NCBI GenBank assembly: GCA_030265585.1
Contig: JAJDGJ010000004.1
Span: 1 to 56,665, forward strand
DNA length: 56,665 nucleotides
Direction of reading: 5' to 3'
Source: Erysipelotrichaceae bacterium OttesenSCG-928-M19
GTDB taxonomy: Bacteria; Bacillota_I; Bacilli_A; JAJDGJ01
Under the pieces are notes generated by a model. It made no database searches. It was given only the letters and a program-made list of their open reading frames with translations, and had not been told where the DNA came from. Every line of letters begins with the position of its first letter. The first letter of the stretch is position 1. Positions 2,517 through 40,303 of this stretch are shown here, piece by piece. Position numbers and translations under genes: made by a program.

Positions 2517-4568
2517 ATGGAGTATATATCTTATAAAATGGTAATGGATATGTTGAATATCACAAAAGGCGACACTGTATTAGTTTCCTCAAGTATTAAA
2601 CAACTTGTAAGAGATGGGCGTGATAACGGTGAAGTTTTTGATGCTAATGATTTTATAGAATATTTAATGGATGTTGTTGGTGAAGAGGGGACACTCCTTT
2701 TTCCGACATACAATTGGGATTTTTGTAAAGGTGATAAATACGACTATAATAATTCTCCAAGTCAAACTGGGATTTTATCACAAGTTGCTTTAGATCGTGA
2801 AGATTTTAAAAGAACAAAACATCCAATTTATTCATTTGCTGTCTGGGGAAAAGATCAAGACTTATTTTGTAATCTAGAAAACAAGAGTGCTTTTGGTAAA
2901 GATTCTCCTTTTGCGTACTTACATAAGAAGGGGAAGAATCTAATTATAGATGTTGGATTAGTACATAGTTTTACATTTGTTCACTATGTAGAAGAGTGTA
3001 TAGGTGTATCATATAGATATTTAAAGGAGTTTAAAAGTATCTATGTGGATGAAAAAGGCAATGAAGAGACTAGATCATATACAATGTATGTTAGAAACCT
3101 AGAGGATAATGTAACTAATCTAGTTGATCCACTTGGTGATAAGATGTTTGAAGAGAATAAAATAATCAAGAAAAAAATAAACAATGTTAATTATACTGTT
3201 GTTGATTTTTCAATCTTTTATGATGAGGCAGTTGAAGATATTCTAACTAATAAATCCCGCTGTTTAGCATACTATGATTCACAAGAAGAAGATATTAGTG
3301 GTGAGATGTATAATTTTGTTAAAAAATTATTTCCTATAAATCGCAGCTTAACAGGTGATGGGGTAAGAGAAACATTGCAAGAAATAAAGAAGCTTTTACC
3401 CACATTAAAAATACAGGAAGTTGCTTCTGGTAGTAATGTTTTTGATTGGACTATTCCTAAAGAATGGAAAATAAGAGAAGCCTATATTGCTGACATGACG
3501 GGCAATAAAATTATTGATTTCAAAAATAATAATCTTCATGTTGTGGGGTATTCAACACCACTTGATTTAATAGTGAAGCAAACTGAATTGGATAACTATT
3601 TATTTACTATACCTGATCAACCAGATTGGATTCCATATGTAACATCATATTATTCAGAGCGTGCAGGCTTTGCTATTTCCGAAAATCAAAGAAAACAACT
3701 AACGGATAATGAGTATCATTTGTTTATTGATAGCGAACTTTTTGATGGTTATCTAACTTATGGAGAATTATTAATTCCTGGAGAAAGCGATCAAGAAATA
3801 TTTCTTTCGACATACGTTTGTCATCCCTCAATGGCAAACAATGAATTGTCTGGTCCTGCAGTGGTAACTTTTTTAGCAAAATGGTTATTAGAGAAAAAAA
3901 GAAGGTACTCTTATCGCATTATATTTATTCCAGAAACAATTGGTTCTTTAACCTATTTAAGTGAGAATATTGAAGTAATGAAGGATAAAATAATTGCTGG
4001 ATTTAACGTTACTTGTGTAGGTGATGATAACGCATTTTCATATATTCCTTCAAGATATGGAAATACCTTAGCAGATAAGATTGCAAAAAACATTTTTATT
4101 ACTAATAATATCGATTTTAAAGAGTATTCATTTTTAGAAAGAGGCTCTGATGAAAGACAATATTGTGCACCTGGTGTTGATTTACCGGTTTGTAGTGTTT
4201 GTCGTAGTAAATATGGTGAATATGTAGAGTATCATACTTCAGCTGATAATCTTGATCTTATTTCTCCAGCAGGTTTGTTTAAATCTTATAACTATTATGT
4301 TGAGTGTCTAAATGCATTAGAAAACAATGCATACTATTTAACGACATGCATAGGAGAACCACAATTAGGTAAAAGGGGATTATATTCAAATGTTAGTAAA
4401 AAAGGTTCAAGTGCTAGTTCAAGAGAAATTATAAACTTTCTTGCTTATGCAGATGGTAAGAATGATTTAATTGATATTAGTAATATAATTAAGGTTCCTG
4501 TTAAGAGATTAATTCCTCTTGTTGAAATTTTAATGAATAACAAAATTTTAGAAAAGAAAGGAGCTTAA
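2517..4568 (+). CDS. AAC(3)-like N-acetyltransferase fused to a DUF4910-type aminopeptidase-like domain
   Basis: 683 residues. Residues about 5-255 match the AAC(3)/YokD acetyltransferase fold (GDTVLVSSS near the start, GTLLFPTYNW, then the HSFTFVHYVEE segment). Residues about 262-600 match the DUF4910/DUF2172 zinc-aminopeptidase-like domain, with candidate metal or catalytic residues H436 (CHPSMANNELSG), E473 (IPET) and H573 (EYHTSADN). The last 60 residues look like the small winged helix common in that family. At the position where M28-like enzymes often carry a bridging Asp, this protein has Asn (N441-N442); whether that is normal in this subfamily is not known to me. The two domains usually occur as separate proteins in glycan clusters. 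Its neighbours suggest acylation or deacylation of a surface sugar or an amino-acid substituent rather than drug resistance (inference). Start ATG 2517 follows an AAAGGAA ribosome site. Confidence 0.7.
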   Translation: MEYISYKMVMDMLNITKGDTVLVSSSIKQLVRDGRDNGEVFDANDFIEYLMDVVGEEGTLLFPTYNWDFCKGDKYDYNNSPSQTGILSQVALDREDFKRTKHPIYSFAVWGKDQDLFCNLENKSAFGKDSPFAYLHKKGKNLIIDVGLVHSFTFVHYVEECIGVSYRYLKEFKSIYVDEKGNEETRSYTMYVRNLEDNVTNLVDPLGDKMFEENKIIKKKINNVNYTVVDFSIFYDEAVEDILTNKSRCLAYYDSQEEDISGEMYNFVKKLFPINRSLTGDGVRETLQEIKKLLPTLKIQEVASGSNVFDWTIPKEWKIREAYIADMTGNKIIDFKNNNLHVVGYSTPLDLIVKQTELDNYLFTIPDQPDWIPYVTSYYSERAGFAISENQRKQLTDNEYHLFIDSELFDGYLTYGELLIPGESDQEIFLSTYVCHPSMANNELSGPAVVTFLAKWLLEKKRRYSYRIIFIPETIGSLTYLSENIEVMKDKIIAGFNVTCVGDDNAFSYIPSRYGNTLADKIAKNIFITNNIDFKEYSFLERGSDERQYCAPGVDLPVCSVCRSKYGEYVEYHTSADNLDLISPAGLFKSYNYYVECLNALENNAYYLTTCIGEPQLGKRGLYSNVSKKGSSASSREIINFLAYADGKNDLIDISNIIKVPVKRLIPLVEILMNNKILEKKGA

Positions 4569-37589: not shown

Positions 37590-37606
37590 GGACACAATTT
37601 GTGTCC
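37590..37606 (-). terminator. Perfect 8-bp inverted repeat, probable terminator of the minus-strand small gene
   Basis: GGACACAA and TTGTGTCC separated by one base. Read on the minus strand it is followed by TTTTCCTTTG, so it may end transcripts from the small gene at 37648-37788. The one-base gap would have to open to form a loop, so a protein-binding operator is an alternative. Confidence 0.5.
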
Positions 37607-37647: not shown

Positions 37648-37788
37648 TTATTTAATGGCTAAGCATTGATCAATAAGACTAATCAAATATTCAGTTTCTG
37701 ATAAGTTTTTATTGTTTATTTCCTCTTTTGAACTAATAGGAAATGCTTCTAAAACTGATTTTAAAATCTCTTTATTATTTTTAACCAT
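37648..37788 (-). CDS. 46-residue small protein, unrecognised
   Basis: A short frame starts MVKNNKEILKSVLEAFPISS and ends EYLISLIDQCLAIK. It has a perfect AAGGAGG ribosome site (37797-37803, 8 bases before the ATG), a TATAAT at 37810-37815 and a palindromic hairpin downstream. It is charged in its first half and amphipathic or helical at the end, with no signal peptide or membrane helix. A degenerate copy, alike in promoter, ribosome site and coding sequence, lies at 40074-40220 on the same strand. That conservation at the protein level (KNNKE..KS.L.AF.IS, then EYLI.L..Q.L) is the best evidence that it is a real gene. Candidates are a small regulator, a peptide precursor or a toxin/antitoxin component; nothing in the sequence decides. 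Confidence 0.65.
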   Translation of the reverse strand: MVKNNKEILKSVLEAFPISSKEEINNKNLSETEYLISLIDQCLAIK

Positions 37789-37809
37789 GTTACCAACCTC
37801 CTTAAATAA

Positions 37810-37815
37810 ATTATA
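37810..37815 (-). promoter_or_regulatory. -10 element of the 46-residue gene
   Basis: TATAAT on the minus strand, 22 bases before the ATG. The 30 bases from here to the ribosome site resemble those upstream of the decayed copy at 40241-40246. Confidence 0.5.
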
Positions 37816-37911
37816 CATTATATTATTTGAAAAATGATTAGAATTAAAATAAATTTAAGGCACATTTTTTTGTTTTTTTTACAAATCATTATATTTAGAT
37901 AAGTTAACATA

Positions 37912-37938
37912 TTAAAAGAAGACACCTTGTAGTGTCTT
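37912..37938 (-). terminator. Terminator of the cyclodeaminase/aminotransferase operon
   Basis: On the minus strand AAGACAC and GTGTCTT (37938-37932 with 37925-37919) form a 7-base-pair stem with loop TACAAG, followed by CTTTT. Confidence 0.75.
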
Positions 37939-37951
37939 ATATTACTAATAA

Positions 37952-39076
37952 TTATTTATAATTTTTTTTAAGATATTCAGCAAATATTCTTAACCCACTA
38001 GATAGAACATCGGTGTTATTTGCATAGCCAATACGTAGATATCCTTCAATGTCTAACGCGCTGCCTGGAACTAACATTACTCCAGTTTCTTGCATAAGAT
38101 TATGACATAATTCGGCTGATTTAACATCAAAATCATATTTAAGAAATGCCGTTGTACCTGCAACTGGCATAGCATATGAAATACCTTTGGTATTTTGTAC
38201 CCATTCATCTAATATTTTAACATTAGTTGAAACAATATTTAAATTCCTTTTTAAAATTTTATCTTTATTTTTTAGAGCAATAGTACCTAGATAATCATCA
38301 ATTAGACCACAACTAATAGTATTATAGTCACGATGAGTGTTTACTCTTTCAATAAAATCTTGTGGACCGACAATCCAACCAAGTCTTAAACCAGCTAATG
38401 AAAATACTTTTGACAAACTACCAGTACTAATCGCTTTATCATAAAGGTCAATCACAGAGGGTGTGAAGCTTCTTTCATGATGTAAACCACGATAGACTTC
38501 ATCACAAACTACATAAGCATCAACTTCTTTTGCTAAAGCAATGATTTCTTTTAAACTGTCATCATCAATTAATGCTCCAGTAGGATTATTAGGATTATTT
38601 AAAGCGATTACTTTTGTATCTTTTGTTATCATTTTTTTAAGTTTATTCAAATCAGGCAGATAGTTGTTTTTATAATCTAATTCAAGTAATTCAACATTAG
38701 CTCTTAATGCTTCAGGAATAGAATAATGTTGTTGGTAGGTTGGGACAAAAACAATAACATGATCTCCTTCTTCAATTAAAGTTTCATAAACTAAATGGTT
38801 GGCTCCAGTAGCACCATGAGTTAAAGTAATATTGTCATTTGTTAAATCTCTAGAAAATAATTTTCTTAATTCGTTTCTAAATTCATCACTACCTTCAATG
38901 GCTCCATAAGTCATTTTCATGTTCCCGATGACATTAAAAGCTTCTTCTTTCATATTTGCTAGCTCTAATAATTCATTTATTGTCATTGAAGCAACACAGG
39001 TTTCAGCAATATTGTATTTTGCATCGTTTTCATATTTATTCATCCATTTCTCGACACCAAAATCTTTGATTTTCAT
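37952..39076 (-). CDS. PLP-dependent aminotransferase, class I/II
   Basis: 374 residues, fold type I. The motifs are NNPNNPTGA (binding the cofactor), CDEVYRGL and the Schiff-base lysine K223 in STGSLSKVFSLAGLRLGW. The C-terminal arginine region GYLRIGYANN would hold the substrate carboxylate. The N terminus (VEKWMNKYENDAKYNIAET) belongs to a subgroup that also contains capreomycidine-synthase-like enzymes, so reactions other than simple transamination are possible; I cannot assign the substrate. ATG 39076 follows a GGAGAA site and the gene begins 11 bases after the cyclodeaminase-like gene, so the two form an operon and probably act on related metabolites. Confidence 0.85.
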   Translation of the reverse strand: MKIKDFGVEKWMNKYENDAKYNIAETCVASMTINELLELANMKEEAFNVIGNMKMTYGAIEGSDEFRNELRKLFSRDLTNDNITLTHGATGANHLVYETLIEEGDHVIVFVPTYQQHYSIPEALRANVELLELDYKNNYLPDLNKLKKMITKDTKVIALNNPNNPTGALIDDDSLKEIIALAKEVDAYVVCDEVYRGLHHERSFTPSVIDLYDKAISTGSLSKVFSLAGLRLGWIVGPQDFIERVNTHRDYNTISCGLIDDYLGTIALKNKDKILKRNLNIVSTNVKILDEWVQNTKGISYAMPVAGTTAFLKYDFDVKSAELCHNLMQETGVMLVPGSALDIEGYLRIGYANNTDVLSSGLRIFAEYLKKNYK

Positions 39077-39087
39077 TTTTATTCTCC

Positions 39088-40068
39088 TTAAAATGTTATT
39101 TTTTGACCGATATTATTTTTATTAGCTTTTTCGATTAGAGAGTAAGCAATCATAATGTCTTGAAGACTAATTCCGGAAGCATCAAATATAGTTATTTCAT
39201 CATTATTTTCTCGACCCTTAACTGGATTTAATAAGACGCTACCAATTTCATTTAATGATTCTTTGCTAATTAACTTATTTTTAAATGCAATTTCACATTC
39301 ACCTACAGTACACGCTTGATTAATATCGTCAACATAGATCTTAGCCTCAGAAAGTAAATTAACATCTAATTCTTGTTTACCACTCATATCAGAGCCTAAG
39401 CATGACAAGTGAGTTCCTGGGTTAATGAAATCCTTCATTATTAGCTGTTTCCTTGATGGTGTAGCACTAATAATAATATCACTCCTTAAACAAGCTTCCT
39501 TCAAATTTTCAGCCACAATAATTTTTTCAATATGATAAAGAGTTTCTTTTAATTTGAAAGCTTGGTTTATATTAATTGGATCATATATTATAATTTCTTC
39601 TAAATCTTGAAAAACTTCGTTCATCATTTCAATAATGAAAGGCGCTAAATAACCACACCCCACAACCAAAAGTGTTTTACTATTAGCTCGAGCTAATAAT
39701 TGGGCACCTATCGTTGCAGCAGCGGCAGTTCGTAATCCTGTTAAGTTTTTAAAATCTAATATTCCAAGTAATTCACCAGTGATTGAGTTGAAAACCATTG
39801 TTGTACTCATCAGTGTCGGCAAGTTTTTAGAATTATTATCACTATGGACTGAGACAACTTTTAGTCCAAAACAATTAGGATCGTTCAAAACACCAGACTT
39901 AATATCCATATCAGCTTCATCAGGAATAAATTCATGGAATATTAAAGGAAAGTCTTGTCCTTGTTTCATTGCTTTTTGAAGATATGCTTGTTTGACAGCA
40001 GAAACAATTTCTTCATTAGTTACCATTTCAGAAATATCCTGACTTGTTAAAGCTCTAAATTCACTCAT
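39088..40068 (-). CDS. Ornithine cyclodeaminase/mu-crystallin family protein
   Basis: 326 residues. The Rossmann motif VVGCGYLAPF, the LTGLRTAAAATIGA segment and the C-terminal FDASGISLQDI are typical of the family, whose members use NAD(P) to cyclise ornithine to proline, reduce ketimines or make amino acids such as diaminopropionate precursors. The upstream ATG 40077 lies within the AGGAGATG ribosome site; ATG 40068 is spaced correctly. Directly upstream on the same strand is the decayed copy of the 46-residue gene, and downstream the aminotransferase. The substrate is unknown. Confidence 0.85.
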   Translation of the reverse strand: MSEFRALTSQDISEMVTNEEIVSAVKQAYLQKAMKQGQDFPLIFHEFIPDEADMDIKSGVLNDPNCFGLKVVSVHSDNNSKNLPTLMSTTMVFNSITGELLGILDFKNLTGLRTAAAATIGAQLLARANSKTLLVVGCGYLAPFIIEMMNEVFQDLEEIIIYDPININQAFKLKETLYHIEKIIVAENLKEACLRSDIIISATPSRKQLIMKDFINPGTHLSCLGSDMSGKQELDVNLLSEAKIYVDDINQACTVGECEIAFKNKLISKESLNEIGSVLLNPVKGRENNDEITIFDASGISLQDIMIAYSLIEKANKNNIGQKITF

Positions 40069-40073
40069 TAAAT

Positions 40074-40220
40074 TCATCTCCTATTATTTTTCTTTAAATT
40101 TTGATTTACTAAATAAATTAAATATTCATTTTAGGGTAATTTATTTATTAAACCGCCTTCAATTGTGCTAATTAGGAATGCCTTTAAACCAGATTTTATG
40201 GCTTCCTTATTATTTTTGTT
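40074..40220 (-). pseudogene. Decayed copy of the 46-residue small gene
   Basis: On the minus strand an AAGGAGG site (40234-40228) and a TATAAT (40246-40241) lead into codons reading NKNNKEAIKSGLKAFLIST. The start codon is missing (the codon before the first Asn is TAG) and a TAA interrupts the frame at 40131-40133. After that stop the same frame resumes similarity (NEYLIYLVNQNL against ETEYLISLIDQCL of the intact gene) and ends at a TGA inside the ribosome site of the cyclodeaminase-like gene. It is therefore a pseudogene of the gene at 37648-37788, or a once-translated leader of this operon. Confidence 0.75.
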
Positions 40221-40240
40221 CTAATAACCTCCTTAAAACA

Positions 40241-40246
40241 ATTATA
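40241..40246 (-). promoter_or_regulatory. -10 element of the cyclodeaminase/aminotransferase operon
   Basis: TATAAT on the minus strand, about 170 bases upstream of the cyclodeaminase ATG; -35 not clear. The untranslated stretch in between is the decayed small gene. Confidence 0.5.
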
Positions 40247-40303
40247 CTTTATATCAATTATATAATAATTATAGAATATATAATTTTTAAAGTTATTTTT
40301 TGT

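Follow-up and report, generated by a model that had tools for sequence, protein, structure and literature searches.

PucR-type transcriptional regulators that have been characterised are mostly activators, several of them for the utilisation of amino acids (alanine, proline) or of GABA (PMC7652997). PutR recognises an inverted repeat of 17 bp, and the binding site of GabR adjoins the -35 region on its upstream side (PMC7652997). Here we describe a regulator of this type in a window of 56,665 nucleotides, the whole stretch of DNA that was analysed, from Erysipelotrichaceae bacterium OttesenSCG-928-M19 (contig JAJDGJ010000004.1). It lies next to the genes of a cyclodeaminase-family enzyme and an aminotransferase, and a small gene and its decayed copy lie on either side of these (Table 1). 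We consider it fairly probable that the small gene belongs to the regulon of the adjacent PucR-type activator, and that its history was one of duplication, capture of a promoter by the enzymes and decay of one reading frame.

The regulator matches the N-terminal domain PF07905 with 66.8 bits (cut-off 33.5) and the C-terminal helix-turn-helix PF13556 (HTH_30) with 47.4 bits (cut-off 27). Pfam detected no GGDEF-like domain in it, as has been reported for GabR of C. glutamicum. The cyclodeaminase-family enzyme matches PF02423 with 184.1 bits (cut-off 24) and stays below the cut-off of every NCBIfam equivalog, including those for ornithine cyclodeaminase and alanine dehydrogenase, the best being TIGR02371 with 227.8 bits against 409. 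Its start is probably at 40068 rather than at 40077, as judged from the spacing to the ribosome site and from alignment with the start of the homologous protein in a second genome of the genus (G001); the ATG at 40077 directly abuts AGGAG (window 40052-40077). The aminotransferase passes the equivalog cut-off of NF005593 (520.4 bits versus 476), and it shows similarity to GntC and VioD as well, with scores under the respective cut-offs. Other neighbours were assigned by Pfam as MATE and glyoxalase.

Table 1. Positions of the genes and signals discussed in the text, numbered along the window
Feature	Position	Strand	Remark
Intrinsic terminator of the small gene, GGACACAAATTGTGTCC then TTTTCCTTT	37590..37606	minus	
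Intact small gene, 46 aa + stop	37648..37788	minus	ORF
AAGGAGG ribosome binding site of the small gene	37797..37803	minus	8 nt before ATG
-10 element TATAAT of the small gene	37810..37815	minus	53 bp after dyad
Dyad TTTGTAAAAAAAACAAA, candidate operator of the PucR-type regulator	37869..37885	minus	
Intrinsic terminator behind the aminotransferase gene	37919..37938	minus	
PLP-dependent aminotransferase-fold enzyme	37952..39076	minus	NF005593 / PRK07324
Ornithine cyclodeaminase / mu-crystallin family enzyme	39088..40068	minus	PF02423
Decayed twin of the small gene	40080..40220	minus	start codon absent, one TAA within the frame
AAGGAGG kept in the decayed copy	40228..40234	minus	
Retained -10 TATAAT, putative enzyme-operon promoter	40241..40246	minus	52 bp after dyad
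Dyad TTTGTAATTTAAACAAA, candidate operator, overlaps the pucR stop codon	40299..40315	minus	G001 has the same 17-mer at this place
PucR-type transcriptional regulator, 360 aa	40304..41386	minus	PF07905 + PF13556

The small gene and its decayed copy

The small gene has been duplicated together with its promoter, and one copy is dead as a protein gene. When the small-gene region was searched against its own 1.12 Mb assembly, the decayed copy was the only second match of note (69% DNA identity over 156 nt, E = 1.4e-10, at 40116-40271 on the minus strand). A gapped alignment of the two copies from the inverted repeat to the coding sequence scored 90, compared with 27.6 +/- 3.9 for dinucleotide shuffles, none of which reached 90 in 500 trials. 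The start ATG is absent from the remnant, where a 4-nt alignment gap falls on its position, and downstream of the internal TAA the similarity picks up again (NEYLIYLVNQNL versus TEYLISLIDQCL). The duplicated unit comprises a 17-bp inverted repeat, the promoter, the ribosome site and the coding sequence. One of its edges is the pucR stop codon, and gapped comparison detected no duplication in the coding end of pucR or past the stop of the small gene. Between the copies lie exactly the two enzyme genes. The earlier note had described an intact 46-codon frame and a second frame with a lost start and an internal stop, alike in -10 element, ribosome site and coding sequence, with similarity continuing beyond the stop and the two enzyme genes enclosed, and had read them as an old duplication of promoter plus gene. 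All of this holds, and the similarity extends further, over the upstream 17-bp dyad. The intact copy carries 14 unique differences, the remnant 21 and the G001 homologue 27, and an eight-codon stretch of the G001 protein is missing from both window copies. Because of these counts and this common absence, the data fit a duplication that postdates the split of the window species and G001, though an old one.

The intact copy is a real gene, restricted to the genus and under selection at the protein level, as the earlier note had proposed. The sole homologue found, in G001, is an intact frame of 54 aa with 41% identity. Codon by codon, the amino acid similarity between the two is 81, compared with 23 +/- 14.5 when the substitutions are reshuffled (p about 0.0002), and the same test gave no conservation signal in the two other reading frames (p 0.74 and 0.68). 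With dN at 0.54 and dS at 1.61, dN/dS is about 0.34; this compares two sequences, and dS is near saturation, so that this ratio and those of the neighbours (regulator 0.17, cyclodeaminase 0.29, aminotransferase 0.19) are rough. They suggest that the small gene is held less strictly than its neighbours. Homologues beyond the genus were not found among 60 relatives, 395 genomes of the class, 392 genomes of the phylum, plasmids and phages. One match in G467 (E = 1.1e-4) was judged to be chance; it lies in an open frame that follows a DinB-type polymerase gene directly on the 3' side and probably encodes the C-terminus of that polymerase. The protein has no match in Pfam, NCBIfam or PHROGs, nor in the PDB by sequence search or by Foldseek fold search. 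AlphaFold2 models it as three helices with moderate confidence (pLDDT 70, pTM 0.42).

The terminator behind the aminotransferase gene and that of the small gene make the intact copy a separate transcription unit. The promoter kept by the remnant probably now drives the enzyme operon. If so, the remnant lies within the 5' leader of the enzyme mRNA, and we infer that it survives as promoter and leader of that operon.

Neighbours of the small gene in related genomes

The constant neighbour of the small gene is the PucR-type regulator and not the enzymes, as observed in two genomes. In G001 the small gene lies directly 3' of the pucR orthologue (63% identity), at the place that the remnant occupies in the window. 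The genes of the G001 cyclodeaminase (59% identity) and aminotransferase (73%) are side by side on a different contig, and the small gene is not with them. The products of the genes that follow the small gene in G001 (L024:9878-12335), a CDGSH iron-sulfur protein and an enzyme of the arginase family, differ from those in the window; pucR and the small gene are thus conserved in otherwise different surroundings. Of the two sister-genus genomes, neither has the regulator, the small gene or the cyclodeaminase, and their aminotransferases are distant ones only. A scan of the GTDB 220 contigs with a pucR profile gave no match.

The pair of an OCD/mu-crystallin dehydrogenase and a PRK07324-type aminotransferase is not confined to the genus. 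Among nine more distant genomes that have the aminotransferase, the cyclodeaminase-family gene is adjacent to it in three (L123, L124 and L128), so that the two enzymes are neighbours here, in G001 and in 3/9 distant loci. The three are a Raoultibacter, a Coriobacteriaceae and a Peptostreptococcaceae genome, in which this type of pair recurs. The distant pairs differ from that of the window: neither the small gene nor a detected relative of this regulator lies near the enzyme homologues in any of the nine genomes. The check set by the earlier note, whether the small gene always adjoins the cyclodeaminase and aminotransferase genes, thus turns out negative, and neither G001 nor the distant loci support that it belongs with them by position. 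A common pathway survives only in the form of a common regulator, suggested by the dyad that the promoters have in common. The other proposal, by which the two copies are traces of the arrival of the enzyme pair, is consistent with what was observed.

The inverted repeat upstream of the promoters

A perfect inverted repeat, TTTGT-N7-ACAAA, is found upstream of both window promoters, of the G001 small gene and of the unlinked G001 enzyme operon. The distances from its end to the TATAAT-type -10 element are 53, 52, 52 and 42 bp, the last, at the G001 enzyme promoter, being one helical turn shorter. With the -10 element set at -12 by convention, the centre of the dyad lies near -73, and near -63 in the G001 enzyme promoter. 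This is a usual place for an activator. We infer that the dyad serves as an activator site of the PucR-type regulator.

The repeat is the only dyad with 5-bp arms common to all four upstream regions. Common descent links three of the four sites, which leaves the G001 enzyme site as the only independent one. In shuffles of that promoter the dyad was present in 0.56%, and when the window small-gene and G001 enzyme promoters were shuffled together, any dyad common with the other two appeared in 0.02%; both values concern an AT-rich motif that was picked by eye before testing. Genome-wide the dyad is not enriched over its reversed control (6 versus 10 in the own assembly, 16 versus 13 in G001). 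A relaxed operator pattern matched hundreds of sites without exceeding its control, and it was for this reason not used to derive a regulon. The six exact sites of the own assembly comprise three in coding sequence, two at the two copies and one upstream of an EamA transporter operon.

That operon has three tandem EamA-type transporter genes (L082:1396-4212). The exact dyad (4374-4390) lies about 160 bp in front of them and is followed 52 bp later by a TATAAT. The operon is possibly a further target of the regulator and is kept as a lead only. Against it, a second TATAAT lies nearer the start of the operon and the G001 orthologue has no dyad, in a promoter comparison that covered three of four promoters (G002 left out).

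Proposed history, rival explanations and comparison with known systems

In the history that we favour, the ancestral order would have been pucR, dyad, promoter and small gene, as in G001. The unit of dyad, promoter and gene would then have been duplicated in the window lineage, and the cyclodeaminase/aminotransferase pair would have ended up behind the copy on the pucR side. Freed from coding selection, this copy would have lost its start codon, and its dyad, promoter and leader would have been retained because expression of the enzymes depends on them. The small protein would still come from the other copy, which has a promoter and a terminator of its own. The regulator may sense an amino acid or a related metabolite and bind TTTGT-N7-ACAAA about 63-74 bp upstream of the transcription starts, which would switch on both the small gene and the enzyme operon. 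The small protein would probably be a cytosolic, helical accessory or feedback factor of the regulator's response. As the small gene occurs in two genomes only, the order of events and the ancestral state are uncertain.

It is also possible to see the small protein as a functional part of the enzyme pathway (a subunit, a chaperone or a peptide substrate), which we regard as clearly unlikely. Its gene flanks both enzymes in the window, and regulator, enzymes and small gene occur together in both members of the genus and not in the sister genus, where regulator, small gene and cyclodeaminase are all absent. However, the unlinked enzymes of G001 and the distant enzyme pairs without the small gene speak against this. 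A role as peptide substrate, which the earlier note had considered, and with it that of a RiPP precursor, is disfavoured by the neighbours, among which there is no peptide-modifying enzyme, and by the conservation between the two sequences, which is spread along the chain and not divided into leader and core. We judge it very improbable that the transcripts function at the RNA level, a small RNA being made from the intact copy and the remnant acting as a leader or attenuator for the enzymes. Compared with shuffled sequences, the intact transcript, its own terminator hairpin included, has a somewhat more stable fold (z -2.8), but conservation between the genomes is in frame, and the remnant leader folds no better than shuffles (z -0.74), contains no terminator and has no Rfam match. 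The G001 enzyme operon has a short leader only, without one of the small-gene type. The idea of a peptide leader, also raised earlier, or of an attenuator of the enzyme operon does not agree with these results either: the remnant is without a start codon and cannot start translation, and the intact copy is terminated and precedes no gene on the same strand.

A rather doubtful explanation is that of a plain relic, in which the enzyme pair was inserted between tandem copies, one copy decayed and the leftover promoter similarity has no function. Only two genomes are available. Promoter and coding parts are both well preserved; retention of the promoter is therefore not by itself proof of selection, and the -10 element and dyad of the remnant may simply not have decayed yet. 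Nevertheless, an exact TATAAT and AAGGAGG are still present in the remnant, its dyad matches that of G001 letter for letter, and some promoter must lie in this interval for the enzyme operon, unless transcription comes through from pucR. A narrower form of our preferred explanation makes the small protein a dedicated feedback inhibitor or co-activator of the PucR-type regulator itself; this form seems rather unlikely. The adjacency to pucR is kept in both members of the genus with other flanking genes different, the promoter of the small gene carries a candidate site of the regulator, and the two genes are jointly absent from the sister genera, but simple co-regulation also explains the adjacency, and the structural model is of moderate confidence, with no Foldseek match in the PDB. 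Quite doubtful is the proposal of a PucR-type activator with a dedicated partner of 46-54 residues, encoded alongside and under the regulator's control, that tunes the regulator's response; to our knowledge, no dedicated small-protein partner of a PucR-type regulator is known.

The preferred reading, membership of the small gene in the PucR-type regulon with promoter capture, gives a small protein without annotation a concrete context that can be tested, namely a regulator, a candidate operator and putatively co-regulated enzymes. It would also be a readable example of probable promoter capture, in which the coding role of a duplicate is lost and its promoter is apparently retained for newly arrived genes. 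More generally, when a small gene is found at the flank of an operon, it may go with the regulator and not with the enzymes. The locus is a clear small case: a gene confined to one lineage, probably within a regulon of ordinary type.

As with AdeR and PutR of B. subtilis and GabR of C. glutamicum (PMC7652997), a regulator with PF07905 and PF13556 lies here beside genes that it is proposed to control, and here too the proposed targets include amino-acid-converting enzymes. Like the PutR site, the window dyad is an inverted repeat of 17 bp upstream of the target promoter (PMC7652997). The differences are that the ligand and the enzyme pair may not be the same, that the operator is only a candidate here and that a small protein gene is the constant neighbour of the regulator. 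Lineage-restricted small proteins of uncultured bacteria, such as those of the GMSC catalogue (PMC11364881), resemble ours in having fewer than 100 aa, no family match and a restricted range. The one described here differs in its testable context, made up of a neighbour that is conserved, a candidate operator and a duplicate that has become a pseudogene.
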